NCBI GenBank assembly: GCA_900095875.1 | Contig: LT608311.1 | Span: 558,001 to 622,000 of the forward strand | DNA length: 64,000 nucleotides | Origin: Caecibacter massiliensis | GTDB lineage: Bacteria; Bacillota; Negativicutes; Veillonellales; Megasphaeraceae | Reading direction: 5' to 3' | Part shown: in pieces, positions 37-37,082 of the stretch | Layout of the letters: every line of letters begins with the position of its first letter | Position numbering within the stretch: the stretch's first letter is position 1 | The notes under the pieces: generated by a model | Told to the model about the DNA's origin: nothing | Seen by the model: the letters and a program-made list of their open reading frames with translations, nothing else | The model's database searches: none | Position numbers and translations under genes: made by a program

Positions 37-3000
37 CTATACGACAGGATCCGCAAAATATACATATACACCTTTGAGCCGTACGAGGTCGAGACCCATT
101 TCTGTAAAAGCTGCGTGGATTGCCTTTTCAGAAAGTGATACGTTTTTCTTTGCATCACCGGCTTTGACGACGTATTGTGCCCCGTCATCAAGTGGATAAA
201 TCCGCAGGGTTACTCCATCATAATCGAGACGGAACATACCACTGCCATCTTCTGTCTGTATGTTCGTTTTGATGGAACGGCTGTGCAGCTGAGGCTGTAC
301 CGGTTCCGTGAGGCGCATGCCCGTCGGCGAAAGCTTCGTTGTTTCTCCCGCCTGGGAAACACCATAGGTGCCATACTGTTTGACTGTATTGTCCTGAACA
401 CGGAAAATCGGCATAGAAATTTCTATTTTGTGCTGTGGCCGGCCACCCTCACGGTTCCAAACATCCTGATTCGTAATATCCGGTTTGGTCTGAACAATCT
501 GCAATGTCGCATCTCCACCGGAAACGAGATAGTTCTTCAGAAAATCAGGACCGCTGAGGAATGTTCCAAAGGAATATGTACCTGGCCAGTTTGTCCGTGT
601 ATTGCCATTGAGATAGCCATGACCATAGTCACCATAATCATAGCTCAGACCTCCCGGCTGATCCCCGTTGGTCAGGCCCGTAACGCGGGACCGGGTCGTC
701 CGTACTACACCGTACTGGGTGAATACGTCATCCGTATCAATACGGAGGGGGGCTTTATTTACGATGATGTCCCCTTCGATGGTGACGATGTAGTTCTTCC
801 GGGCATCACTGCCATTTTCATGGACGATACCGCCACCATCCGATTCCATGTCATTGTAATACGTCCCGGCATCGGCCGTAGTCCGGCCGGCCCGGTTGGT
901 TTCATACGCTCCACCAGCCTTCGGCGTCATAGTCAGGCCAACCGTAGAAATAGTATCCCCGTTCACCAGATTGGGATTGGACGATTCCGTAAAGGTTGTC
1001 TTATCCGAGCCATAAGTCTGAATCATGTCGTTGGTAACTTTGATGGCTACCGGTGTCAGAGTAACCGTACCGGCCTTATCCAGCACCACTTCGTAGTTGT
1101 CCAGGGACTTATTGAAGTCCGTCGTAATGCCATAGCTGTCCAGGCTGCCATCCGTCTTGTACTTTACATCGTTGGTCCGGTCCTTACTTACGAGAGCACC
1201 AGATGTGTTGGTGATACCGATTTTAGACGTCAATTCAACCAGGCTGTCCCCGTTTTTTTCGCCCTTGACCGTAGTAGCACTATCCAGATCCTTCTGAACT
1301 GCCCCTGCATCCCCATAGGCTTCCGTATAGTTGCCAGTGGACAGATGCAGTGTGGCTTTGTTGATGGTGGCATTGCCGTTTTCGATCTCGATGTTGTAGT
1401 TGTCCAGTGTCTGGTTGGTAGACCCTTCCAGGTAGTATGGCCCGCCGTTCACCGTCTTGGTCACCTTGCCGGCCTGTTTTTCCTCTGCGGAAGCATCGCC
1501 CGTATTGGTATAGGTGATATTGCCCGTGCCGTACGTCCCATCGAGGGCACTCGTCACCACGCCTGAGCCGTCCCCGTTGGTCAGGCCTTCGATACTGCTG
1601 GTATCATAACCATACTTGCTGGTATCAAAAGCTGTACCATAGGTGGTGGAAACATCGTTGAGCTTCACCTTCACAGTAGCTTTGTTTACCGTGGCCGTAC
1701 CGGCCAAATCAGAGTTTTCCTTATCGATTTCATAGTTCTGAGCCGTATTACCCTTCAGGGTAAACGTCCCTGTCAAATCATAGTCTCCTGCATTCTGGGT
1801 CTTGACAGCGGAATTGTTGGGATCAGACTTTTCTCCGCCATTAGAATAGGAAACTTCAATTTGATTGTTCCTTACGTCTTCCTCTGAATCTCCATTGGCA
1901 TTTCCAGACAGGGTATAGGCATAAGGGGTCCAATCACTTGACCCATAGGTAGTGCTCGTATCCCCCACTTTCAAGGTCAGTTTGGCCTTTTCTACCTTAG
2001 AAGTGCCCGGGTTCACCACTTTGATGTTGTAGTTGTCCAGGGTTTTGGAGGTGTTGCCGGTGATCTGGTAGCTGCCGGCGTTCTGGGTCTTGACATTTTC
2101 GTTATTGGGATCGGATTTTTCCCCGCCATTCACATAAGTAAAATCACTGTCCTGGAGGACATCGGTGATGGCCGCTGCGGCATCCCCGTTGGTCAGCCCC
2201 TGCAGATCCGCCGCGTCCTTTTTGTACCCATAGGTGCTGCTGTCAAACTCTTTCCCGTAGGTGGTAGAGACGTCTTTCAGGGTCAGGGTCAGATTCGCTT
2301 TATCCACGGTGGAATCGGCCCCGTCAATGATCACCTTATAATTCTGCAGTGTCTTCTCCGTAGTCCCGGTCAGTTTGTATCCTGTGCCTGCGTTTTGGGT
2401 CTTTACATTCTCATTGTCCGGATCCGTAGCGTCCCCGGTGTTGGTGTAGGTAATATCCCCGTTGCCAATGGCTTTCGTCACTACATCCGTGCTGTCCCCG
2501 TTGGCCATCGCCAGCTTGCTGGCATCATAGCCGTACTTGCTGGTATCGAAGGCCGTACCGTAAGTGGTGGATACGTCGTTGAGCTTCAGATGGATTTCTG
2601 CCGGAGTGACTTCAGCCTTGCCGGCCTTCACGGTGCCGATTACGTAGTTCTGCGCCGTATCCCCGCTGAGCGTGAAGGTTCCCATCAGATCGTAGCTGCC
2701 CACATCCTGGGTCTTTACCTTGTCATTGGACGCATCGGATTTCTCCCCGCCATTGGTGTAGGTAACGGAAATCTTGTTGTTTTCTACATTTGCTACGGTA
2801 TCCCCGTTGGCATTGCCTTCCAGGGTATAGCTGTACGTATTGGGATCAAAAGCAGTTCCGTAGGTGGTTTCCGTATTTCCCACCGTCAAGGTCAGTTTGG
2901 CCTTTTCCACCGTAGATTTCCCGTTGGTGATATGGACGTTATAGTCAGAGAGTTCCTTGCTGGCAGCCCCCTGGAGTTCATAAGTCCCGGCATTCTGAGT

Positions 3001-6000
3001 CTTCACCTTGTCGTTGCTGGCATCCGTTTTCGCCCCGGTATTGGTGTAGTTGAGGAATTGATCTCCCAATACAGACTGGGTATCCCCGTTCACCAGCCCA
3101 CCTTTGGCGTCATCCACCGTATAGCCATACTGGGTATCATCAAAGGCCGTCCCATAGGTGGTGGACACATCCCCCACCGTCAGGTAGAGATCCGCCGGGT
3201 TCACCGTGATGGTGCCACTGCCGGTGACCTCATAGTTGGCAGAAGCATCGCTGCCATCGCTAGCCTTTACCTCTGCACTGGAAGTCAGATATTGGTCTTC
3301 ATATTTGCCTACATGGGCCGTATCGTTGCTACCCTTGCTGTCAGCATAAGTACCATCAGTAGAAATGGTATACTTGATATCACTATCAGTCAGAGTATCT
3401 CCGTTTACCAGCTGGGTTTTGTCGTAAGAAGGCGTCCCGCTCTTCACCGTGGAGTTGCCATAAGTCTGGGTACCATCGGTGTTGATGGTCAGTGTCTTCC
3501 GAGTGATTTCCACTTCCCCATCATTGGCCGCCTTGTCATACCCGTTCAGGGTCTTGACCCCATCCTGATAGGCCACATCCATCACGTAGAAGGCTTTGTT
3601 CCCATCGCTGGCCGTCTTATACGTTTTATTGCCATCTGCATCTGTCACCATTTCATTTCCGCTGGTCCGGGTGGCTGTTTGCACAGCGCCGTCACTGGAT
3701 GCGCTGACCGTAGCCAGGCCCGTCTTCGTTCCGTCCGAACTGGTCACGTAGGTCAGATAATCGGCTTCATTGAAATTGCTGAACTGGGTCACATCGACAT
3801 CCTTGCCGGTGGAATCCGTATAGGTGGCCGAGGTGATCAGCAGATTCCGCAGTTGGTCATCGGTAAGGGTATCCCCGTAGGTTTTCTTCTGGCTGCCGCC
3901 GGAAATGGTAATCACCGGGGTTACCTGGAAGATGAACTTGTTGCTGCTGGTATCGGTATAGTCCGTCAGCGTTTTATTAGAACTGTTGGTAGTCACCGTG
4001 CTGTTAGCATCGGATTTGGCCGTCCACTGGGCATTGGTGCTGCTGTTCAGATTGCTGCCCAGGCTGGTGCCATAGTCGCTGGGGGAATTCACATAGACCT
4101 GCCAGGTGCCTCCGGTGCCGGTGGTGATGGCAGAAGTACCGGTGGTGCTGTTCACCAGAGAGCCCTGGCTGCCCTGGGCATCGACCACCACAGCGCCTTT
4201 TGCCGTGCTGGCCGCAGCCAGGGTGCCCTCTGTGGCATTGCCATTGTAATCCACGCCGGCGCCCAGGGTGATCTTACCGGTCTTCCCGGTGGAAGTCAGA
4301 CTGATCTTGCCGCCGTTCAGGGTGCTGTCACTATCTGTATAGCCGTCGGATTCCACGCCGTGGACGGTAAGGTCACCGGCTGATTTGATGGTTACACTGT
4401 CCAGCTGGAAGGCGGTGTTCTGGTATCCATCGCTACGGGTGGTGATGTCACTGGCAGAAGCGGTGGTATCCGTGGTGCCGGAATGGATTTCCCCGCCTAC
4501 CGATACGGTACCCCCGGAAATGTAGACCCCATGGTCCGCATAAACAGTGCCGTATTTATAGTTTGTGGCTTTATTGTTTTCATTCCCGATGGTCACGGCC
4601 CCGGTGCTTTCAATGTTCACCGTATCCAGAGCCTTGCCTTTCCCGATATCCCCTTCCAGGCTGACAGCGCCGCTGCCGGCTTTGATGTTCAGGCTGGAAT
4701 TGGCCAGGTTGGTCTCCTTGATAAAGCCCACGGTGGTATCCCCGCCCATGGCCGCATCGTCCCATTTGCCGGTGGTGCCAAACCCTACGGTCAGGAACGG
4801 TGCACTGTTGTCCGGCTGGGAACGGGTCTTGTTCCCGTCTTTATAGGTATCCCAGTTCACATACCCATAAACGGCTTTCCCATAATTCCCGCTCTGCCAG
4901 TTAGAACCAGCATTGCTGTAGAATTGGGTCCCCTTGCCATTATTGGCTTCCCCTTCCGGGCCGGTGACCCAGTACATGCCGTCCTGATAGGTAGGATCGT
5001 CGGGCATGCCGTAAAAGGAATAAGGATAGAGCTTGTCGTTGGTGCTGCTGTTGGAACCTTTTTTGTTCAGTACGCCGGAACCCCGGCCACCGGCCCAGAG
5101 GATCTGCTGGCCGTTAGGCGTGGTCAGGGAGTTTTCCAGGATGGTGGTAATGGTGGCCAGGTAGGAATCCCCTGCAGCCGAACCGCCTTTGGTATTTCCC
5201 TGGGCCAGTTCCTTGGATGCAAACCAGTTGGTAGCCAGGAGATGGCTGATGTCGTCCTTGATATTGGCGTAAAGAGTCTGTCCGTTCAACGTGGTATCGG
5301 TGCTGGCCGTACCATTCGTGAAGCTTTCAACAGCCGCAGTCAGATAGGTTTTTAAATCGGCTGTGGTCATGGTTTTTCCGGCCGAATTTTGTACAGAAGT
5401 AGTAGTCTTACCGCCACTTGTAGCAGTTACCACCTTAACCCCACTGCTCTGGCTGATATATCGATTGGCAAAGTTAGCTGCGTTATAGGTGAGCTGGTAG
5501 TTCAGCCATTGTTCCAAGGTCATTTCGCCTTTGGTGATGACGACGGAAGCATATCCCGTCCCCGCACTTGTGCTGACGCTGGTGGAGCTCCCGTCTCCCA
5601 GCCAGCGGACATTCTGGGTATCGGCTTCAGAGAAGGTGTAATGGGGCTGTCCATTGCTAAAGCTCTGGGCGTCTGTGGTGTATTGATAAGTCCCGTCTGC
5701 ATTCTTCACATAGTTGCCGCTGGTGTCTTTCACATAGTTAACACCCTGGTAATGATAGGCCGGGACCGTACCTTTTTCCAGGTATTTTTCCACCGTCTGT
5801 TCCACCAGGGTATTCCAAGTGTCCGTCCCGTATACATAGGCCCCATAGCTGTTCCCGGAGTTGATGATCCCGGTGGCCGTCACATCTCCGCCCCCGGAAT
5901 CCAGGGTCAGAGTTCCCCCGTTGAGGCCGATGGCGATTTCCCCGTTAAGGGTGATCTTCCCGCCGCTGGTCTTGATCATCCGGTCATCCTTTGCCCCATC

Positions 6001-7698
6001 CGCTGTACCGCTGCTGTCCACATGGCCAAAATAGGTACCGACCGTATGGCCCGCAGGATCTGCCTTGCCGCTAAGGGTCCCTTTGCCATACCCTTTGGTA
6101 TTGGCCTTATCACTGGTATATGTCACCGTACCGCCGGAAGCGGAGGTGAAATTTCCCCCATTGGTATTGATATTGGCATTGATGATTACGGCACCGATCT
6201 GGTCCCCGTTGCTGTCCGCATTCAATACCACATTCAGTTTATTGGACGTAGAAGAGATATTGCCATTGACGGTGATATTCCGCATGGCATCCAGGGTAAA
6301 GGTGGCATCATCCCCTGCGGTCTTATCGATGTCATTTTTGACGATGATATTGGCCGATCCGTTAGTGGCCGCTGCCTGGATGGTCACATTCGTACCCGCA
6401 TTCAGCATTTTTTCCACCATATCAGTGGAAATCCAGGTTACAGCACTGTTTACGGAAGAAGCATTGGCAGTGGTGGCATCGGGGTCGTTGTAGCCGATGG
6501 AAGCACTGCCCTTGGTGAAATCAGAATCCGCGGCGGTTTTCTTTTCCGCATTGTCATAATTACTTGTCGTTGTGGGATCACTGTCGGCGATGATTACGTC
6601 CAGCGGATCCAGCAGCCATTCCCCTGCCTTGCCGCTGACGCCTTTTGCATCGATTGTGAGATTATCCCCCAGGTTCAGCACGTCGCCGGAGGTTTCGATT
6701 TTGCCGCCGTCCACATCACCGCGGGCGAGGAGGTTTGTCCCGTCATGGACGATGGTCTTTTCACCGATGACTTTGATATTTCCTGCGTCCTGGCCTTTTT
6801 CCGTACCGGAAGCGTCCAAGGTTCCACTAACATCGACCTGTCCATGATCTCCGCCGTCGAGAATGATCTGGCCTTTTTCATTTTTACGCAGCGTCTTAGC
6901 TTCAATGGTGCCGCTGTTGTTGACGACCGTGCTCAGGACATCGCCGGCACTTTTAGCCGTCATGACGACGTATCCGCCATCGGCTTTGAGCGTACCGCTG
7001 TTGAGAGATTGTGCCCGTGCCAGCGTACCATCGACAGTGAAATTCAGTTTGCCATCAGCATCACTGGACAGATTCAGATTCTTTGCTGCCGTAAGAGCTA
7101 CCATACCGCCGTCATTAGCAATGGTACCACTGTTTTCTACGTTTGACGCATGAAGAGCGACCAGACCGCCCTGGGCCTTGATGATTCCTTCATTGATAAC
7201 AGCCGCATTGTTTTCATTATCGACAGCGAGATTCAGGGAATCCTGGCTGCTGCCAAAGCGATTCATCGTGTCATCAGCGAGACGGGCCGTCGAAGCGACG
7301 AGTCCTCCTACATCAACACTGGCATTTTTACCAAATACGACACCATTTGGGTTGACCAGAAAAACATGTCCATTGGCATTCAGGTTCCCTTCGATCAGGG
7401 ACTGCTGGCCACCGGTAACCCGGTTCAGTGATACGGCATTCTTATCAGGCTGTGCATAACGAACTGTTTCATTTTTAGCTATATCAAACTGCGTCCAGTC
7501 AATAGCCATGCGGTTGCTATTCTGTTGAACCGTCATCGTTTGTCCTTGTTCTACAATGGACCCATTGCCGGACCGGATGGTTCCGCCCGAAGGCATAGCC
7601 TGTACAGAGCCACCCAGCGCCATGGCCAGGAGGACCATGCCAGTCAGCCGATGTTTCCATTGGTTTCTATTTCTATATCTCATATATATCCGCTTCAT
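37..7698 (-). CDS. Giant filamentous-haemagglutinin-like secreted adhesin (TpsA type)
   Basis: Predicted exoprotein of a two-partner secretion system, 2553 aa. A cleavable signal peptide (basic start, hydrophobic stretch, VQA cut around residue 34) is followed by the TPS/haemagglutination-activity domain (about residues 35-180) with the family motif NPNGVVFG. A Gly/Asn/Thr-rich beta-helix region follows. It is interrupted at about residues 820-985 by a segment that looks like a C-type-lectin-like domain: LATIT near its start, then WAGG, and QPDNS plus KWDD near its end. From about residue 1260 there are 11 MBG-type repeats of roughly 85 aa, most with the core TTYGTAFD and linkers such as VKTQNAG. 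The C-terminus (about 180 aa) is not a beta-barrel, so export must use the TpsB encoded 23 bp upstream. Substrate or host receptor is unknown; adhesion is inferred from the family. The opposite strand carries long open frames that I regard as shadows. Confidence 0.9.
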   Translation of the reverse strand: MKRIYMRYRNRNQWKHRLTGMVLLAMALGGSVQAMPSGGTIRSGNGSIVEQGQTMTVQQNSNRMAIDWTQFDIAKNETVRYAQPDKNAVSLNRVTGGQQSLIEGNLNANGHVFLVNPNGVVFGKNASVDVGGLVASTARLADDTMNRFGSSQDSLNLAVDNENNAAVINEGIIKAQGGLVALHASNVENSGTIANDGGMVALTAAKNLNLSSDADGKLNFTVDGTLARAQSLNSGTLKADGGYVVMTAKSAGDVLSTVVNNSGTIEAKTLRKNEKGQIILDGGDHGQVDVSGTLDASGTEKGQDAGNIKVIGEKTIVHDGTNLLARGDVDGGKIETSGDVLNLGDNLTIDAKGVSGKAGEWLLDPLDVIIADSDPTTTSNYDNAEKKTAADSDFTKGSASIGYNDPDATTANASSVNSAVTWISTDMVEKMLNAGTNVTIQAAATNGSANIIVKNDIDKTAGDDATFTLDAMRNITVNGNISSTSNKLNVVLNADSNGDQIGAVIINANINTNGGNFTSASGGTVTYTSDKANTKGYGKGTLSGKADPAGHTVGTYFGHVDSSGTADGAKDDRMIKTSGGKITLNGEIAIGLNGGTLTLDSGGGDVTATGIINSGNSYGAYVYGTDTWNTLVEQTVEKYLEKGTVPAYHYQGVNYVKDTSGNYVKNADGTYQYTTDAQSFSNGQPHYTFSEADTQNVRWLGDGSSTSVSTSAGTGYASVVITKGEMTLEQWLNYQLTYNAANFANRYISQSSGVKVVTATSGGKTTTSVQNSAGKTMTTADLKTYLTAAVESFTNGTASTDTTLNGQTLYANIKDDISHLLATNWFASKELAQGNTKGGSAAGDSYLATITTILENSLTTPNGQQILWAGGRGSGVLNKKGSNSSTNDKLYPYSFYGMPDDPTYQDGMYWVTGPEGEANNGKGTQFYSNAGSNWQSGNYGKAVYGYVNWDTYKDGNKTRSQPDNSAPFLTVGFGTTGKWDDAAMGGDTTVGFIKETNLANSSLNIKAGSGAVSLEGDIGKGKALDTVNIESTGAVTIGNENNKATNYKYGTVYADHGVYISGGTVSVGGEIHSGTTDTTASASDITTRSDGYQNTAFQLDSVTIKSAGDLTVHGVESDGYTDSDSTLNGGKISLTSTGKTGKITLGAGVDYNGNATEGTLAAASTAKGAVVVDAQGSQGSLVNSTTGTSAITTGTGGTWQVYVNSPSDYGTSLGSNLNSSTNAQWTAKSDANSTVTTNSSNKTLTDYTDTSSNKFIFQVTPVITISGGSQKKTYGDTLTDDQLRNLLITSATYTDSTGKDVDVTQFSNFNEADYLTYVTSSDGTKTGLATVSASSDGAVQTATRTSGNEMVTDADGNKTYKTASDGNKAFYVMDVAYQDGVKTLNGYDKAANDGEVEITRKTLTINTDGTQTYGNSTVKSGTPSYDKTQLVNGDTLTDSDIKYTISTDGTYADSKGSNDTAHVGKYEDQYLTSSAEVKASDGSDASANYEVTGSGTITVNPADLYLTVGDVSTTYGTAFDDTQYGYTVDDAKGGLVNGDTQSVLGDQFLNYTNTGAKTDASNDKVKTQNAGTYELQGAASKELSDYNVHITNGKSTVEKAKLTLTVGNTETTYGTAFDPNTYSYTLEGNANGDTVANVENNKISVTYTNGGEKSDASNDKVKTQDVGSYDLMGTFTLSGDTAQNYVIGTVKAGKAEVTPAEIHLKLNDVSTTYGTAFDTSKYGYDASKLAMANGDSTDVVTKAIGNGDITYTNTGDATDPDNENVKTQNAGTGYKLTGTTEKTLQNYKVIIDGADSTVDKANLTLTLKDVSTTYGKEFDSSTYGYKKDAADLQGLTNGDAAAAITDVLQDSDFTYVNGGEKSDPNNENVKTQNAGSYQITGNTSKTLDNYNIKVVNPGTSKVEKAKLTLKVGDTSTTYGSSDWTPYAYTLSGNANGDSEEDVRNNQIEVSYSNGGEKSDPNNSAVKTQNAGDYDLTGTFTLKGNTAQNYEIDKENSDLAGTATVNKATVKVKLNDVSTTYGTAFDTSKYGYDTSSIEGLTNGDGSGVVTSALDGTYGTGNITYTNTGDASAEEKQAGKVTKTVNGGPYYLEGSTNQTLDNYNIEIENGNATINKATLHLSTGNYTEAYGDAGAVQKDLDSATTVKGEKNGDSLVELTSKIGITNTSGALVSKDRTNDVKYKTDGSLDSYGITTDFNKSLDNYEVVLDKAGTVTLTPVAIKVTNDMIQTYGSDKTTFTESSNPNLVNGDTISTVGLTMTPKAGGAYETNRAGRTTADAGTYYNDMESDGGGIVHENGSDARKNYIVTIEGDIIVNKAPLRIDTDDVFTQYGVVRTTRSRVTGLTNGDQPGGLSYDYGDYGHGYLNGNTRTNWPGTYSFGTFLSGPDFLKNYLVSGGDATLQIVQTKPDITNQDVWNREGGRPQHKIEISMPIFRVQDNTVKQYGTYGVSQAGETTKLSPTGMRLTEPVQPQLHSRSIKTNIQTEDGSGMFRLDYDGVTLRIYPLDDGAQYVVKAGDAKKNVSLSEKAIHAAFTEMGLDLVRLKGVYVYFADPVV

Positions 7699-29013: not shown

Positions 29014-29775
29014 TTATTTGATGACAGCCTTATGGATGATTTCCAGGAAATCACCGGCTTTCAGGCTGGCACCGCCGACCAGTCCGCCATCAATGTCGGG
29101 GCAGGCTGTCAGTTCTGCTGCATTTTTGCCTTTAACGCTGCCGCCGTACAAAATGGATACATCCTGTGCAGCTGTGTCATCATAGAGAGCTGCCAGCTTT
29201 TTGCGGATAATGTCGCATACTTCTTCTGCCTGAGCAGCCGTCGCCGTTTTGCCCGTCCCGATAGCCCAGATAGGTTCGTAGGCGATGACCACTTTCGTTA
29301 TATCAGCTGCCGCAATATCTTTCAGGGCGTTTTCGATCTGACCTTCTATCCAGGACTGCATAATACCGCCTTCACGCTGGGCCAGCGTTTCCCCACAGCA
29401 GAGAATCGGCGTGAGTCCATGGGCTAGTGCAGATTTAACTTTCAGATTGACCGTTTCATCCGTTTCATTGTTGTATTCCCGCCGTTCCGAATGGCCGATG
29501 ATGGCATGGCTGACGCCGATATCTTTTAACATAGCCGGCGATACTTCGCCTGTGTAAGCGCCGTTGTCCAGCCAGTGCATATTCTGGGCAGCGACATGTA
29601 CAGCCGTTCCTTTTGTCAGTTCTACAGCCATCGGCAAATAGGGAAATACGGGGGCGATGACAATATCTGCCTGTTCCGCACCAGTAAGTCCCTGTACGAG
29701 AGCCGTGATGGTTTCCCGCGTTTCTTTTCCGGTGTGATTCATCTTCCAGTTACCTGCAATAATTGTTTTTCTCAT
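29014..29775 (-). CDS. tpiA: Triosephosphate isomerase
   Basis: 253 aa TIM barrel interconverting dihydroxyacetone phosphate and glyceraldehyde-3-phosphate. It begins MRKTIIAGNWKMN (catalytic Lys and Asn). The catalytic His is in IIGHSERR and the catalytic Glu in AYEPIWAIGTGK; the phosphate loop is YGGSV. The start was placed at 29775, where the conserved sequence begins and AAGGAG precedes it; the upstream extension to 29820 is not conserved. Last gene of the gap2-cggR-gap1-pgk-tpiA operon. Confidence 0.98.
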   Translation of the reverse strand: MRKTIIAGNWKMNHTGKETRETITALVQGLTGAEQADIVIAPVFPYLPMAVELTKGTAVHVAAQNMHWLDNGAYTGEVSPAMLKDIGVSHAIIGHSERREYNNETDETVNLKVKSALAHGLTPILCCGETLAQREGGIMQSWIEGQIENALKDIAAADITKVVIAYEPIWAIGTGKTATAAQAEEVCDIIRKKLAALYDDTAAQDVSILYGGSVKGKNAAELTACPDIDGGLVGGASLKAGDFLEIIHKAVIK

Positions 29776-29809: not shown

Positions 29810-30991
29810 TTATTTATCACTCAGCGATTCTATACCGGGCAGCTTCTTGCCTTCCAGATATTCCAGGGAAGCGCCGCCGCCAGTAGAGATATGGCTGATC
29901 TGATTAGCAAGGCCTGTTTTATTTACAGCCGAAACGGAGTCACCGCCGCCGACAATGGAAACCGCCTGGGAATGAGCTACTGCACGGGCAACAGCTTCTG
30001 TGCCCTTTGCGAAGTTTTCCATTTCAAAGACTCCCATCGGACCGTTCCAGACGATGAGTTTCATCGGTTCCAGTTCACGGGCAAACAGTTCCTGTGACTT
30101 TGTACCGATATCGAGGATCATCCAGTCTTCCGGCACGGCATCAGCCGGTACGACTTTATGAGCCGCATCGTTAGAGAACGTTTCCGCTACGTTCACATCG
30201 ACGGGCAGCAGCAGTTTCTTTCCTTCGTCTGCTGCCTGGGCGATAAGTTTCTTCGCCAAATCGATTTTATCGGCTTCTACCAGAGACTTTCCAATACCAT
30301 ACCCCTGGGCTGCCAGGAAGGTGTTGGCCATGCCGCCGCCAATAATCATGACATCGACTTTGGGCAGCAGATTGGAAATGACTTCAATCTTATCGGAAAC
30401 TTTGGCACCACCAATGATTGCTGCGAAGGGGTGTGCCGGATGATCGACGGCACCACCGATAAAGCGGATTTCTTTTTCCAGAAGGAAACCGGCTGCCATA
30501 GGAAGAAAAGCGGCAATACCGGCTACGGATGCATGAGCGCGGTGGCAGCATCCAAAGGCGTCGTTGATGCCTACATCGGCCAGAGAAGCCAGCTTGCGGG
30601 AGAATTCCGGATCATTCTTTTCCTCTTCCCCGTGGAAGCGCAGGTTTTCCAGGAGCAGGACCTGGCCCGGCTGCAGTGCCCCGGCCATAGTTTCCGTTTC
30701 GGCTCCGATGCAGTCCGGTGCCATCTGCACGGGAATCCCCAGCAGTTCCGACAGGCGGGCTGCCACCGGTTTTAAGGAATATTTTGCAACGGCCTTTCCC
30801 TTTGGCCGGCCCAGATGGCTGGCCAGGATGACCGCAGCCTGATGGTCGAGGAGATAGCGGATTGTCGGCAATGTTTTCTGGATCCGTGTATCGTCGGTGA
30901 TAACGCCATTTTCATCAAGTGGCACGTTGAAATCAGCGCGGACAAATACTTTTTTCTTATCTACATCTACATCAGTAATTATTTTTTTCAT
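29810..30991 (-). CDS. pgk: Phosphoglycerate kinase
   Basis: 393 aa, standard size. It transfers phosphate from 1,3-bisphosphoglycerate to ADP. It has the N-terminal [12 protein letters not shown] motif, SHLGRPKG, and the nucleotide-binding C-domain with IGGAKVSDK and VGGGDSV. The start [10 protein letters not shown] at 30991 has AGGAGAG upstream. It follows gap1 with a 17-bp gap and leads into tpiA. Confidence 0.98.
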
Positions 30992-31008: not shown

Positions 31009-32034
31009 TCAGTCGAGACCCTGGGATGTGAGGTATTTCACCAGTTCGACGACGCGGCGGGCATATCCCCATTCATTATCATACCAGGAGACAATTTTCA
31101 CCATGCCTCCGTCCATGACCATATTCAGGGGAATATCGATGGTCGTCGTATTTTCATTGCCGCGGTAATCAACCGAAACGAGTTCATCTTCGTTAGTATC
31201 GATGATGCCTCTGTATTTCCAAGCAGCGGCTTTTTTGAAGGTGCTGTTCAAATCTTCCAGGGTAACGTTTTTATCTTCTAATTCCAGTACAATATCCACA
31301 ATGGAGACATCCGGTGTCGGTACGCGGACTGCCCGGCAGCTCAGTTTGCCTTCGAATTCCGGCAGGACTTTGGTAATGGCTTCGGCAGCCCCTGTCGTCG
31401 TCGGAATGATCGACATGCCCGCTGCCCGGGCGCGGCGGAAATCTTTATGGGATACGTCGAGTATTTTCTGGTCCGTCGTGTAGGAATGGATGGATGTGGT
31501 CATACCGCGTCTGACACCATACGTATCATTCATCAGTTTCAGGATAGCAGCCAGACCGCAGGTTGTCATAGAAGCGCCGGAAATGACGTGGTGCTTCTTG
31601 GGATTGTATTTATCTTCATTGACGCCAAGGACAATCGTAATGTCATCGATGGTGGATGGTGCCGTAATGATGACTTTTTTTACGCTGCCTCCCAGAGGAA
31701 GACGACTCTGGGAACTCGCCGTGCGGCGGCCGGCATATTTGCCCGATGATTCGATGATAATCTGGGCACCGAGAGCATCCCAATCGACATCTTTCACATC
31801 TTTCTGCTGAAACAGCGGATAGGCTTTCCCATCAACGATGATGTGGCCCGTATCATAGGTCACGTTATTTTTCAATGTGCCATAGATGCTGTCATATTTC
31901 AGAAGATGGGCCATCTGTTTCGGAGAACCGATATCATTGATGCCGACGATTTCGATTTCATCCTGATAGCGCTGGGCAATCTTAAAAAGACTTCTGCCAA
32001 TACGCCCAAATCCATTAATACCTACTTTTACCAT
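31009..32034 (-). CDS. GAPDH paralogue lacking the catalytic cysteine (gap1)
   Basis: 341 aa with a full GAPDH fold: Rossmann motif [13 protein letters not shown]-type Asp in INDIG, general-base His183 (SIHSYTTDQ), phosphate-site TTTGAAEA, RVPTPDVS, and the C-terminal SWYDNEWGYARRV. However, the active-site block that reads [12 protein letters not shown] in working enzymes is SGASMTTCGLAA here. The nucleophile position is Met156, and a Cys appears three residues later (Cys159). I checked the codons (TCT ATG ACA ACC TGC GGT). Unless Cys159 can substitute, it cannot form the thioacyl intermediate, so a regulatory, structural or altered-activity role is more likely. ATG 32034 is preferred over GTG 32043 because AAAGGG is correctly spaced only for the former. 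It lies between cggR and pgk, the usual place for gapA. Confidence 0.9.
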   Translation of the reverse strand: MVKVGINGFGRIGRSLFKIAQRYQDEIEIVGINDIGSPKQMAHLLKYDSIYGTLKNNVTYDTGHIIVDGKAYPLFQQKDVKDVDWDALGAQIIIESSGKYAGRRTASSQSRLPLGGSVKKVIITAPSTIDDITIVLGVNEDKYNPKKHHVISGASMTTCGLAAILKLMNDTYGVRRGMTTSIHSYTTDQKILDVSHKDFRRARAAGMSIIPTTTGAAEAITKVLPEFEGKLSCRAVRVPTPDVSIVDIVLELEDKNVTLEDLNSTFKKAAAWKYRGIIDTNEDELVSVDYRGNENTTTIDIPLNMVMDGGMVKIVSWYDNEWGYARRVVELVKYLTSQGLD

Positions 32035-32056
32035 GCTATACACCCTTTCCTCATTA

Positions 32057-33079
32057 TCATATCATCTTCAGGATTTGTTCTGCGGCTCCTTCATCTGTAA
32101 CGAGGATTCCTGTACGGCAGGCACGCATCACCGCAAGGATAGCTTCAGCCTTGCTGGTTCCGCCTGCGACAGCTATAACATGTGGATGTTTTTTTATGTC
32201 TTTTAAAGAAATACCGGCATTGCTCGTCACGTGGACGACATGACCATCGAGACTGCAATAGCAGCCCAGGGACTCGCCACAGGCCATGAGCTCCTTCAAC
32301 GCATGCGTTTCTACCGTTGTCAGGCCGCGCCGTTTTGCCATCGTATCGGCCCGGCCTATGCCGAACAGGACAATCTGGGCCTTTTGTGCCAGAGCTACAT
32401 TTTCCCTCGCCTGTTCATCCGCATCAAGCATGAGGTGCAAAGCCGACTGGCTCAGCCCGTCCGGTATATGGACCATCCGGTACGTACCATGCGTCTTGAC
32501 CGCTACGTTGGCGGCAATATAATTGGCCTGGAATTCGACGTGATTGCCAATGCCGCCCCGGGCCGGCACAATGACCGGTCCCGCCGTGCTTTCTGGCAGG
32601 CAGCGTGCTACTTCGGCCATGGTCGAACCGCCACTGATTGCGACGATTGCCCCCCGCGTGAGCAGGTCATTCAGGAGCAGGGCTGCCTGACGCCCCATTT
32701 CTTCACAGGCCGCTTTATCGGTATCACAATCGCCCGGTACGATATATACTTCTTTCAACTGCAGGTGCTGACAGAGCCGACGCTGCATATCATCGACATT
32801 ATTCAGGCGCAGGAAACATTCCAGTAAATCCGGCATGAGTCTGCGTCCTTCCGGCTCAAGGGCAATCCCCATGGTCGTAAAACGCACGAGGCCACTTCGC
32901 CGCAGCACATCCACATGTGCCCGTACTACTCGTTCAGATAATCCCGACAAGGCGGCCAGAGACCGGCGCCCGACGGGTTCCGCATCAGAAATATGACGGA
33001 GCAGCAAATATCTTTCTTTGATGGTCCCCATTACATCGGGGGCTATTTTGCGAAAGACATTGAGAGTCTTTTCTTTCAT
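32057..33079 (-). CDS. cggR: Central glycolytic genes regulator, SorC/CggR family
   Basis: 340 aa. An N-terminal winged-helix DNA-binding domain (about residues 18-75: RRSLAALSGLSERVVRAHVD) is joined to a SorC sugar-phosphate-binding domain with AISGGSTMAEVARCL and NAGISLKDI. CggR proteins repress the gap-pgk-tpi operon and are released by fructose-1,6-bisphosphate. ATG at 33079 has GGGAGG upstream. It lies second in the operon, after gap2, rather than first as in Bacillus, and so probably controls its own transcription from the promoter at 34218-34246. Confidence 0.92.
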   Translation of the reverse strand: MKEKTLNVFRKIAPDVMGTIKERYLLLRHISDAEPVGRRSLAALSGLSERVVRAHVDVLRRSGLVRFTTMGIALEPEGRRLMPDLLECFLRLNNVDDMQRRLCQHLQLKEVYIVPGDCDTDKAACEEMGRQAALLLNDLLTRGAIVAISGGSTMAEVARCLPESTAGPVIVPARGGIGNHVEFQANYIAANVAVKTHGTYRMVHIPDGLSQSALHLMLDADEQARENVALAQKAQIVLFGIGRADTMAKRRGLTTVETHALKELMACGESLGCYCSLDGHVVHVTSNAGISLKDIKKHPHVIAVAGGTSKAEAILAVMRACRTGILVTDEGAAEQILKMI

Positions 33080-33114
33080 CTTTTCCTCCCTTTTGCTGCC
33101 TGTCATGATAGTCT

Positions 33115-34128
33115 TTAAATACCTTTCGTTGCCATATAGGCCGCCAGGTCATTGACGCGGAGAGAATATCCCCATTCATTATCATACCAGGCAACAACTT
33201 TAATCATGTCGCCTTCGACAATCTGTGTATCTAGCGAATCGACAATGGAGCTATGGGGATCGCTGATATAATCGGAAGAAACGGTAGCGTCTTCTGAATA
33301 GGCCAGTATGCCTTTCAGCGGGCCTTCCGCCCATTTTTTCAGGGCACCGTTCACTTCTTCTACGGTTACTTTTTTCTGCAGGATAGCTACGAGGTCGGTC
33401 ATCGAAACGTTCGGTGTCGGGACGCGCAGAGCCATACCGGTAAACTTGCCTTTCAATTCAGGCAGGACCAGGGCAACGGCCTTGGCTGCACCGGTAGAAG
33501 TCGGAATAATAGACTGGGTAGCGCAGCGGGCACGGCGCATATCTTTATGTACGCCATCGACGAGAAGCTGATCGTTCGTATAGGCATGAACCGTCGTCAT
33601 CATACCACGGACGATACCGAATTCGCGGGACAGCACTTTGGCTACAGGAGCCAGGCAGTTCGTCGTACACGAACCGTTCGAAATAATACGGTGTTTTTCC
33701 GGATCGTACGTTTCTTCATTGACACCCATAACGATGGTCGTATCAGGATTTTTGCCCGGCGCCGTAATGATGACGCGTTTGGCACCGCCTGCCAGATGTT
33801 TGGATGCCGATTCGCGGTCTTTGAATTTACCTGTCGATTCGACTACTACATCTACACCCAGTTTTTTCCAGGGAATATCAGCCGGATCCGTATGATTGGT
33901 CACGGGAATGCGGCGCCCGTCAATAATCAGTTCACTCGTTCCTTCATCGTATGATACATCGTGGTTCCACGTACCATGCACGGTATCGAATTTTAATAAA
34001 TCCGCCATGATAGGGCCAACGGAACGGTTATTGATAGCCGCGATTTCGATTTCCGGCTGCAGCAGGGACGTGCGGAGTGTGCACCGGCCAATTCTGCCAA
34101 AGCCACTGATACCTATTTTTACTGTCAT
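33115..34128 (-). CDS. Glyceraldehyde-3-phosphate dehydrogenase (gap2)
   Basis: 337 aa, catalytically intact: [12 protein letters not shown] with the nucleophilic Cys, His in VHAYTNDQ, and a C-terminal WYDNEWGYSLRV. At the cofactor-selecting position after the second beta strand it reads INNRS where NAD enzymes have IND. Loss of that Asp is associated with NADPH use in GapB-type enzymes, so this copy may accept NADP(H) or both; that is an inference from one position. It is the first gene of the cggR-pgk-tpiA operon, with AAGGAGGAA before ATG. Confidence 0.95.
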   Translation of the reverse strand: MTVKIGISGFGRIGRCTLRTSLLQPEIEIAAINNRSVGPIMADLLKFDTVHGTWNHDVSYDEGTSELIIDGRRIPVTNHTDPADIPWKKLGVDVVVESTGKFKDRESASKHLAGGAKRVIITAPGKNPDTTIVMGVNEETYDPEKHRIISNGSCTTNCLAPVAKVLSREFGIVRGMMTTVHAYTNDQLLVDGVHKDMRRARCATQSIIPTSTGAAKAVALVLPELKGKFTGMALRVPTPNVSMTDLVAILQKKVTVEEVNGALKKWAEGPLKGILAYSEDATVSSDYISDPHSSIVDSLDTQIVEGDMIKVVAWYDNEWGYSLRVNDLAAYMATKGI

Positions 34129-34377: not shown

Positions 34378-35901
34378 TTATGAGTGAAGCAGATTGTTAC
34401 CAGTCATTTCCGGTGGCACCGGCAGTCCGGCAAGATGGAGCAGCGTCGGCGCGACGTCGGCCAGTTTGCCATCATTCAGAACATCATGCTGATGGCAGCG
34501 GCTGACTAAAATGCAGGGAACTTTATTTGTCGTATGTGCCGTATAGGGCGAACCGGTCACAGGATCTGCCATCTGTTCGGCATTGCCATGATCGGCAATG
34601 ATCAGTACTTCGCCACCAGCCTGCTGCAGTACTTCTACAATACGGCCGACACAGGTATCGACTGTTTCAACGGCTTTGATGGCCGCCGGAATGACACCCG
34701 TATGTCCTACCATATCGGCATTGGCAAAGTTCAGCATGATCATGTCATATGTCCCCGACTGGATTTGTTCGATGACCTTATCCGTCACGACAGGGGCACT
34801 CATTTCTGGCTTCAGATCATACGTAGCAACTTTAGGAGATGGAACGAGGATCCGGTCTTCACCGGCATTCGGCGTTTCATTGCCTCCGTTGAAGAAATAG
34901 GTCACATGAGCATATTTTTCCGTTTCAGCGATGCGCAACTGTTTCTTCCCTGCTTTGGCCAGCACTTCGCCCAGTGTATTGACGATGGTTTCCTTATCGT
35001 AGGCAATGTGAACAGGCAGGCCGTCTTCATAACGGGTCATAGTCGTAAAGTAGATATCCCGTTTTTCTGGCCGGTCAAACCCCTTGAAATCAGGAGCTAC
35101 AAAGGCTTCTGTCAGCTGCCGTGCCCGGTCGGGACGGAAATTAAAGAATATGACACTGTCTCCATCGGCAACGGGCTGATGGCAGAGGACGGACGGCACG
35201 ACGAATTCATCGGAAACATCCGCTGCATAAGAATCGCGCAGACAGGACCGGACATCGGCTGCTTCGACACCTTCGCCGAAGGCAATGGCCCTGTACGCTT
35301 TTTCAATGCGGTCCCACCGTTTATCCCGGTCCATAGCATAATAACGGCCGCTGATTGTCGCGATGGTTCCCGTACCAAGACGGCGGCATTCGTCTTCCAG
35401 TTCCTGGAGAAACGGGCCGGCACTGCGGGGAAGGACATCGCGGCCATCCAGGAAAGCATGGATAAAAACCTTTTTCAGACCGTATTGGCGGGCCATTTCC
35501 AGCAGGCCGAAGAGGTGTTTTTCACTGCTATGTACGCCTCCGGGCGACACGAGGCCCATGAGGTGAAGAGCTGAATGACGATCCCGGGCATTTTCCATGG
35601 CTCCCACCAGTGCTTCTTTTTTGAAGAAAGCACCCGTTTTAATATCGTTTGTAATTTTCGTCAGTGCCTGATAGACGACCCGGCCGGCTCCGATATTGAG
35701 ATGTCCCACTTCGGAATTTCCAATCTGGCCTGCCGGAAGTCCTACGGCTTCGCCAGACGCTTCCAGGTGAGAATGGGGATAGTCATGCCACAAGCGCGGC
35801 AGCACCTTTAAATCAGCCATGGCCACGGCGTTATCTTTTTTTTCATCACGGCATCCGAACCCGTCCATGATGATCAGCATTACTGTGTGTTTTTGTGTCA
35901 T
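34378..35901 (-). CDS. gpmI: 2,3-bisphosphoglycerate-independent phosphoglycerate mutase
   Basis: 507 aa, typical length. It converts 3- to 2-phosphoglycerate using two Mn ions. Metal ligands include Asp13 in LIIMDGFG, the catalytic Ser63 is in GNSEVGHLNIGAG, and the late motifs NFANADMVGHTG and ADHGNAEQM are intact. The start at 35901 (MTQKHTVML) has AAGGAG upstream; the longer reading to 35958 crosses the gap3 terminator. No clear terminator follows, so some read-through into the gap2 operon is possible. Confidence 0.97.
   Translation of the reverse strand: MTQKHTVMLIIMDGFGCRDEKKDNAVAMADLKVLPRLWHDYPHSHLEASGEAVGLPAGQIGNSEVGHLNIGAGRVVYQALTKITNDIKTGAFFKKEALVGAMENARDRHSALHLMGLVSPGGVHSSEKHLFGLLEMARQYGLKKVFIHAFLDGRDVLPRSAGPFLQELEDECRRLGTGTIATISGRYYAMDRDKRWDRIEKAYRAIAFGEGVEAADVRSCLRDSYAADVSDEFVVPSVLCHQPVADGDSVIFFNFRPDRARQLTEAFVAPDFKGFDRPEKRDIYFTTMTRYEDGLPVHIAYDKETIVNTLGEVLAKAGKKQLRIAETEKYAHVTYFFNGGNETPNAGEDRILVPSPKVATYDLKPEMSAPVVTDKVIEQIQSGTYDMIMLNFANADMVGHTGVIPAAIKAVETVDTCVGRIVEVLQQAGGEVLIIADHGNAEQMADPVTGSPYTAHTTNKVPCILVSRCHQHDVLNDGKLADVAPTLLHLAGLPVPPEMTGNNLLHS

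Positions 35902-36017: not shown

Positions 36018-37082
<1,065 letters not shown>

Follow-up and report, generated by a model that had tools for sequence, protein, structure and literature searches.

The cggR operon and its GAPDH genes

The window, by which we mean the whole stretch of 64,000 nucleotides of Caecibacter massiliensis DNA that was analysed, carries on its minus strand a set of glycolytic genes in the order gap(P3)-gpmI-gap(P2)-cggR-P1-pgk-tpi. P1, P2 and P3 denote the three GAPDH genes and their products; a genome-wide search turned up no GAPDH gene beyond them. The names gpmI, pgk and tpi are presumptive and were assigned from the sequences. The features to which we refer are listed below by their coordinates in the window. 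Numbers in the B. stearothermophilus (Bst) scheme other than 149 come from a Bacillus-type sequence calibrated on Cys149 and may be off by one from the classical numbering.

29014..29775, minus strand: presumed tpi
29810..30991, minus strand: presumed pgk; each of the 15 genus genomes has an orthologue
31009..32034, minus strand: P1, GAPDH paralogue with Met156 at the position of the catalytic Cys149 (Pfam Gp_dh_N and Gp_dh_C; predicted fold)
31486..31488, minus strand: codon of His183 (Bst His176), retained
31558..31560, minus strand: codon TGC of Cys159 (Bst Asn152 position); the other 8 clade members have Cys (4), Gly (3) or Asn (1)
31567..31569, minus strand: codon ATG of Met156 (Bst Cys149 position), where the other 8 clade members carry TGC or TGT
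31699..31734, minus strand: P1 residues ~101-112, a loop that carries an insertion not shared by P2 or P3 and that is modelled at low confidence (pLDDT of the block 58; residues 104-106 below 50)
32035..32056, minus strand: ribosome-binding region with AGGAAAGG ahead of the P1 ATG, by direct reading
32057..33106, minus strand: cggR, SorC-type central glycolytic gene regulator (Pfam CggR_N and Sugar-bind)
33115..34128, minus strand: P2, GAPDH with Cys (SNGSCTTNCL) and coenzyme loop INNRSVG, by alignment
34378..35901, minus strand: presumed gpmI-like phosphoglycerate mutase; served as a tblastn query
36018..37046, minus strand: P3, GAPDH with Cys; orthologue in 15 of 15 genus genomes

On the minus strand the P1 frame runs uninterrupted from its ATG at 32034 as far as a stop codon at 31009 and encodes 341 amino acids; a GTG at 32043 in the list of open reading frames is a mechanical start only, and the ATG was used. 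Both GAPDH domains are present (Gp_dh_N, 109.7 bits; Gp_dh_C, 181.6 bits). Immediately upstream lies cggR, whose CggR_N domain scores 67.8 bits against a cut-off of 30, and pgk follows immediately downstream. A reading made earlier from the sequence alone had placed P1 at these coordinates, between cggR and pgk, in good frame and with a ribosome-binding site, and all of this was borne out: the coordinates are correct, Pfam identifies the upstream gene as cggR, the 341 codons are uninterrupted and AGGAAAGG precedes the ATG. With cggR beside gap, pgk and tpi on one strand, the cluster has the composition of a CggR-type glycolytic operon.

P2 and P3 both carry the SCTTNC loop. The coenzyme loop of P2, INNRSVG, has Asn and Arg where many GAPDHs carry Asp-Leu, and P2 may on this account prefer NADP. 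Elsewhere in the window, positions 37-7698 hold a single open frame of ~2550 codons, the largest among the frames kept for codon-usage analysis.

The active site of P1 and its clade

Catalysis by GAPDH is described, in an excerpt of PMC9287727, as strictly dependent on the reactive Cys149, aided by His176. Residues 152-161 of P1 read SGASMTTCGL, and alignment places Met156 (ATG) opposite Cys149, so that the sequence-only reading was correct in putting Met at the nucleophile position. It was also correct that the catalytic His and the phosphate-binding motifs are kept: His183 and the TGAA, RVPTP and SWYDNEWGY motifs are present, as are the NAD-site and phosphate-site residues. With Met at position 149 neither a thiohemiacetal nor a thioester should form, and P1 would therefore be expected to lack phosphorylating dehydrogenase activity.

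The nucleophile position is Cys in 158 of 159 distinct GAPDHs sampled from 141 genomes, and the single Met is that of P1; expressed by clade, Cys was found in 150/150 proteins outside the P1 clade and in 8/8 of its other members. The sample began with 200 matching frames, reduced to 159 once repeats within a genome were dropped. Of the 141 genomes, 61 belong to the same order as the window and the other 80 are named contigs; the loci on these contigs are the best 80 of at least 589 confirmed, found with search patterns that spare the nucleophile, one of which spans His183. A gap fragment in genome G004, too short for inclusion, was left out; this short 5' P2-like piece (G004:C28:35964-36155; loci L030 and L195) shows 82% identity over 61 amino acids and lies outside the operon.

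The sequence-only reading had asked whether the SMTTCG form might be a conserved clade. No such clade was found: Met is present in 0/8 orthologues of P1, and the DNA pattern for S-x-x-S-M-T-T-x-x-L-A occurs in 1/300 genomes of the class, namely the source genome itself. In the phylum the pattern matched 2/398 genomes, the source genome and G582, and the match in the latter is a 26-amino-acid chance frame with no similarity to GAPDH; a backwards control pattern gave 4 chance matches in the same 398 genomes. (The samples of 159 GAPDHs, 300 class genomes and 398 phylum genomes overlap.) P1 is thus a species-level variant in a remodelled GAPDH clade and not a member of a conserved Met-GAPDH family. 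Viral contigs were searched for copies of P1 from close strains; they yielded 15 relatives, none of them above 44% identity, and a 20-base stretch of the P1 active site had no exact match there. A narrow search of the open-access literature, outside which most subscription papers lie, found no report of a natural GAPDH without Cys149 and no description of the remodelled clade.

When a form is confined to one genome it must be asked whether it is an error of sequencing or assembly, or a defect of one isolate. Two single-base indels that compensate each other would in fact account for the change, as they might in such an error. However, the assembly consists of 2 contigs with a completeness rating of 100%, and two adjacent errors that retain both the frame and a sense codon are unlikely. 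We consider this explanation very improbable.

P1 orthologues are present in 7 of the 15 genus genomes, its own included, and in both genomes of the sister genus, hence in 9/17 genomes of the family; elsewhere in the order, in the remaining 44 genomes, nothing matches P1 at more than 54% identity. In a tree built from 90 of the 159 sequences, with 11 of the 80 named loci among them, these nine form one group with a support of 100 and a stem length of 1.27, values to which the tool attaches a warning that long branches meet here. The eight orthologues of P1 (L004-L009, L127 and L128) resemble it in sequence (72-77% identity), in their position before pgk and in the marks of the clade, but differ from it in that all 8 have Cys149.

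These marks are several. In every one of the nine members Asn146 is replaced by Gly (Asn in 149/150 other GAPDHs), Met172 by Thr (Met in 147/150), Thr174 by Ser (Thr in 150/150) and Gly226 by Cys (Gly in 149/150). Asn152 (150/150 outside the clade) and Cys153 (147/150) are variable inside it, and of 78 sites that are nearly constant in GAPDH each member has changed 11 to 15. His176 and the TGAA, RVPTP and DNExGY motifs are present in 9/9, His176 being found in 150/150 others as well. P1 does not reach the cut-off of the GAPDH-I model TIGR01534 (359.9 against 367.2), which is reached by 6 of the 8 Cys-bearing orthologues and hence by 6/9 of the clade, and it falls well below that of the erythrose-4-phosphate dehydrogenase model TIGR01532 (258.2 against 530.55). 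The four substitutions common to 9/9 members imply that the active-site loop was remodelled clade-wide and that the source species lost the nucleophile too. At each of these sites the remodelling, seen at the eight loci above and at 31009-32034 of the window, is rare or absent in the 150 others. These comparisons show that P1 derives from a family-specific clade that had already diverged far from ordinary GAPDH.

The drift raises the possibility that the whole clade has a function other than that of GAPDH, for which the Cys was never essential or serves a different reaction, the source species showing that it can go. The long stem, read with the warning attached to it, would fit this idea, as would the 11 to 15 changed sites, the substitutions N146G, M172T, T174S and G226C, the variability at Asn152 and Cys153 and the failure of 3/9 members to reach TIGR01534. 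Yet Cys149 is kept in 8/9 members and His176 and the phosphate-site residues in 9/9, and 6/9 exceed the GAPDH-I cut-off. We regard a clade-wide departure of this kind as improbable, and ordinary dehydrogenase activity in most members of the clade as likely.

The sequence-only reading had also described a Cys shifted three residues on, and had offered an enzyme that uses this displaced Cys in a different chemistry. Cys159 is indeed present but nothing has shifted, because it substitutes for the otherwise constant Asn152 (150/150) and the usual Cys153 is Gly. Further, the same Cys accompanies Cys149 in 4/8 orthologues (those of G001, G004, G015 and G016). It can therefore predate the loss of Cys149, and nothing suggests a nucleophile that has moved; on the evidence of the orthologues the displaced-nucleophile proposal is rejected. 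A more general form of the idea, in which Cys159 or another residue serves as nucleophile, draws on the predicted model, where a helix spans residues 156-172 and Cys159 lies one turn past the old nucleophile. But a Cys that coexists with Cys149 need not be its replacement, and by position it would lie further into the helix, whereas the nucleophile acts from the N-terminal end. The neighbouring Cys153 in a solved GAPDH is given in the excerpt of PMC9287727 as buried, with 0 A2 exposed. A different chemistry of this sort seems to us highly unlikely.

Gene neighbourhood and selection on P1

P1 and P2 are either both present or both absent in 17/17 family genomes. In the 8 of the 15 genus genomes that lack them the order is P3-gpmI-cggR-pgk-tpi; three of these genomes are only 78-83% complete, and pgk and its neighbours were read in each. 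On a tree made from the joined pgk, tpi, gpmI, P3 and cggR proteins (with P3 of G003, G004, G007 and G015 omitted, and with G016 represented without P3 or gpmI), the pattern of presence requires two changes if the best tree is taken, whereas half of the bootstrap trees need a single change. The source genome stands at the base of an 11-genome group (84/79) that holds the eight genomes without P1 and P2 together with G001 and G004, which have both; G004 is a fast-evolving small genome. The both-or-neither pattern is weak evidence of a partnership, because one or two loss events suffice to explain it. The eight species without the pair, and the place of the source at the base of their group, make it plausible that P1 is dispensable.

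At 22/22 other loci tested in the order (L033 of Veillonella parvula and 21 more; the GAPDH of G052 is identical to that of L033, which identifies the order as that of Veillonella) a GAPDH lies between cggR and pgk, as P1 does. This single GAPDH is closer in sequence to P2 (57-60%) than to P1 (50-54%; 52% for L033). Either of the two may be heir to the ancestral gap, since P1 keeps the ancestral place and sequence favours P2; the deep branches of the GAPDH tree are long and poorly supported. Several peculiarities were seen in related genomes. In the stretches read from G003 (L153) and G007 (L155) no cggR was found to separate P2 from P1, which would then adjoin. G015 (L160) has two tandem P3-type GAPDH genes, the loop of one ending in NGL instead of NCL. 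In G005 (L124 and L126) pgk was matched as two overlapping pieces, as if by a frameshift or an assembly error.

Is P1 decaying? It has no frameshift or stop. On a codon index trained on P3, pgk, tpi and gpmI from the same window, P1 scores 0.726, close to P2 (0.707) and tpi (0.715) and above cggR (0.579). The tip branch of P1, whose placement within the clade has low support, is 0.18 long and shows no acceleration, the other tips being 0.03 to 0.25. P1 departs alone from 7 otherwise uniform columns of the clade, other members doing so at 0 to 9, and two of its seven departures, C156M and G272W, look radical.

Selection was estimated with a purpose-written codon model. The P1 branch gave an omega of 0.040 against 0.077 elsewhere (2dlnL 4.25, which is marginal; similar on two other topologies). 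This points to tighter and not looser constraint, but it should not be relied on heavily: the branch carries >3 neutral substitutions per codon, so that its synonymous sites are saturated, and the very long G004 branch gave a still lower 0.023, itself a hint of saturation. As a control, the P2 branch of the source genome gave 0.063 against 0.048 elsewhere (2dlnL 0.78). We also asked how long a neutral phase the tip could contain, the whole branch measuring 3.3 to 5.3 substitutions per codon. With the omega of the clade assigned to the constrained part, a neutral phase above ~0.05 substitutions per codon is rejected; with the constrained omega left free the limit lies between 0.10 and 0.15 (~0.13). 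Codon 156 was omitted from the first pass and from the free-omega profile.

The codon itself bears on the same question. To pass from TGC or TGT to ATG takes three base changes. By single-base steps the probability of TGC to ATG is 6.5e-8 for a neutral phase of 0.05 and 5.1e-7 for one of 0.1, compared with 0.021 and 0.041 for any loss of the Cys. Because the stepwise route is so improbable, the change must be either old, with selection on the gene continuing afterwards, or the product of one recent complex mutation. The latter stays possible, since TGC ACA to ATG ACA, with an ancestral ACA assumed, can be written as an inserted A and a deleted C two bases apart.

The intact frame, the codon usage, the omega and the short neutral phase give no sign of a pseudogene made by frameshift or by relaxed drift. 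They provide some statistical support, within the limits given, for the view that P1 has been under purifying selection after, or despite, the loss of its nucleophile. The sequence-only reading had held that absence of the Met form from close relatives, together with signs of decay, would tell against it: the form is absent from the relatives, but no signs of decay were found.

A recent accident is harder to dismiss than decay. One complex or multi-base mutation may have struck an unneeded paralogue, leaving P1 inert and heading for loss, as in the related species. The absence of P1 and P2 from 8/15 genus genomes and the basal place of the source, the restriction of the Met form to this one genome and the writing of the change as one A in and one C out all suit such an event, and a loss of recent date would leave no trace. 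Against it, P1 has no other lesion, its frame, start, ribosome-binding stretch and codon usage being intact; the neutral phase is limited to a few percent of the branch; and both a rare kind of mutation and a recent date are required. We think such an accident unlikely, though not strongly so. It and a retained pseudoenzyme are the two live readings, and the retained pseudoenzyme is somewhat better supported.

Predicted structure and possible role of P1

The fold predicted for P1, from an alignment that combined the 3 GAPDHs of the window with 37 of the 80 named loci, is a complete GAPDH with a mean pLDDT of 92.6. Compared with the type I enzyme of B. stearothermophilus (PF00044/PF02800; 1gd1), P1 shares the whole fold (51% identity; TM 0.94 and 0.96), His176 and the coenzyme-site and phosphate-site residues. 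It differs in having Met for Cys149, Gly for Asn146, Cys for Asn152 and Gly for Cys153, in the insertion near residue 105 and in its TIGR01534 score under the cut-off. By title, the best PDB match of the model is 1npt, an engineered C149A enzyme with NAD+, and rank 5 is 1nq5, C149S with NAD+. Since both were solved with NAD+, a GAPDH without the Cys can fold and bind NAD. P1 resembles them in having the GAPDH fold without the nucleophile, but they are laboratory mutants with a single change, whereas P1 is a natural, diverged paralogue. At rank 37 is 2vyn, by its title a heterotetramer of E. coli and rat sperm GAPDH, from which it follows that different GAPDHs are able to mix in one tetramer.

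In P1 an essential residue is lost and the fold, as predicted, is retained, as would be expected of a GAPDH-fold pseudoenzyme. The earlier proposal of a pseudo-enzyme for the phosphorylating reaction thus finds support in the logic of the residues and in the comparisons above, and the hetero-oligomer subunit that it also offered is plausible. We suggest, giving it an even chance, that P1 is a dehydrogenase-dead paralogue that is still selected, probably as a binding or regulatory subunit and perhaps in mixed tetramers with P2. P1 would be folded and probably well expressed, and would carry out no thioester chemistry, Met having replaced the nucleophile with no thiol in its stead. It would act by binding, with NAD and triose phosphate bound and the GAPDH tetramer formed, probably mixed with P2, its constant genomic partner, and catalysis would be supplied by P2 and P3, whose motifs are intact. 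Alternatively, P1 may serve as a metabolite-binding regulator of the cggR operon. A more specific version, which we put forward tentatively, makes P1 a true pseudoenzyme, either a non-catalytic subunit that tunes P2 or a sensor of NAD and triose phosphate for the cggR operon, and the end point of a clade that is leaving dehydrogenase chemistry.

The prozyme of the trypanosomal AdoMetDC offers a parallel, according to an excerpt of PMC6221367, as a dead paralogue beside a live one. The enzyme is unrelated, and the mixed active complex that the excerpt reports there is for P1 a guess.

The GAPDH cysteine is among the most constant residues in metabolism, and P1 is a natural copy without it inside a glycolytic operon. 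The two neighbouring copies have intact motifs and the orthologues in sister species bear the Cys, which makes P1 a clean system for the non-catalytic roles of GAPDH: any one of the three copies can be assayed or deleted independently of the others, and the related species without P1 serve as controls.

The coenzyme region of P1 deserves a further remark. The best PDB match by sequence is 3dbv, a B. stearothermophilus mutant that was reportedly engineered to accept NADP. The two proteins are similar in this region, with NDIGS and DVSHKD in P1 and NDTGG and DASHKD in 3dbv, a likeness which, taken with that reported acceptance of NADP, suggests that the choice of coenzyme by P1 may be looser.
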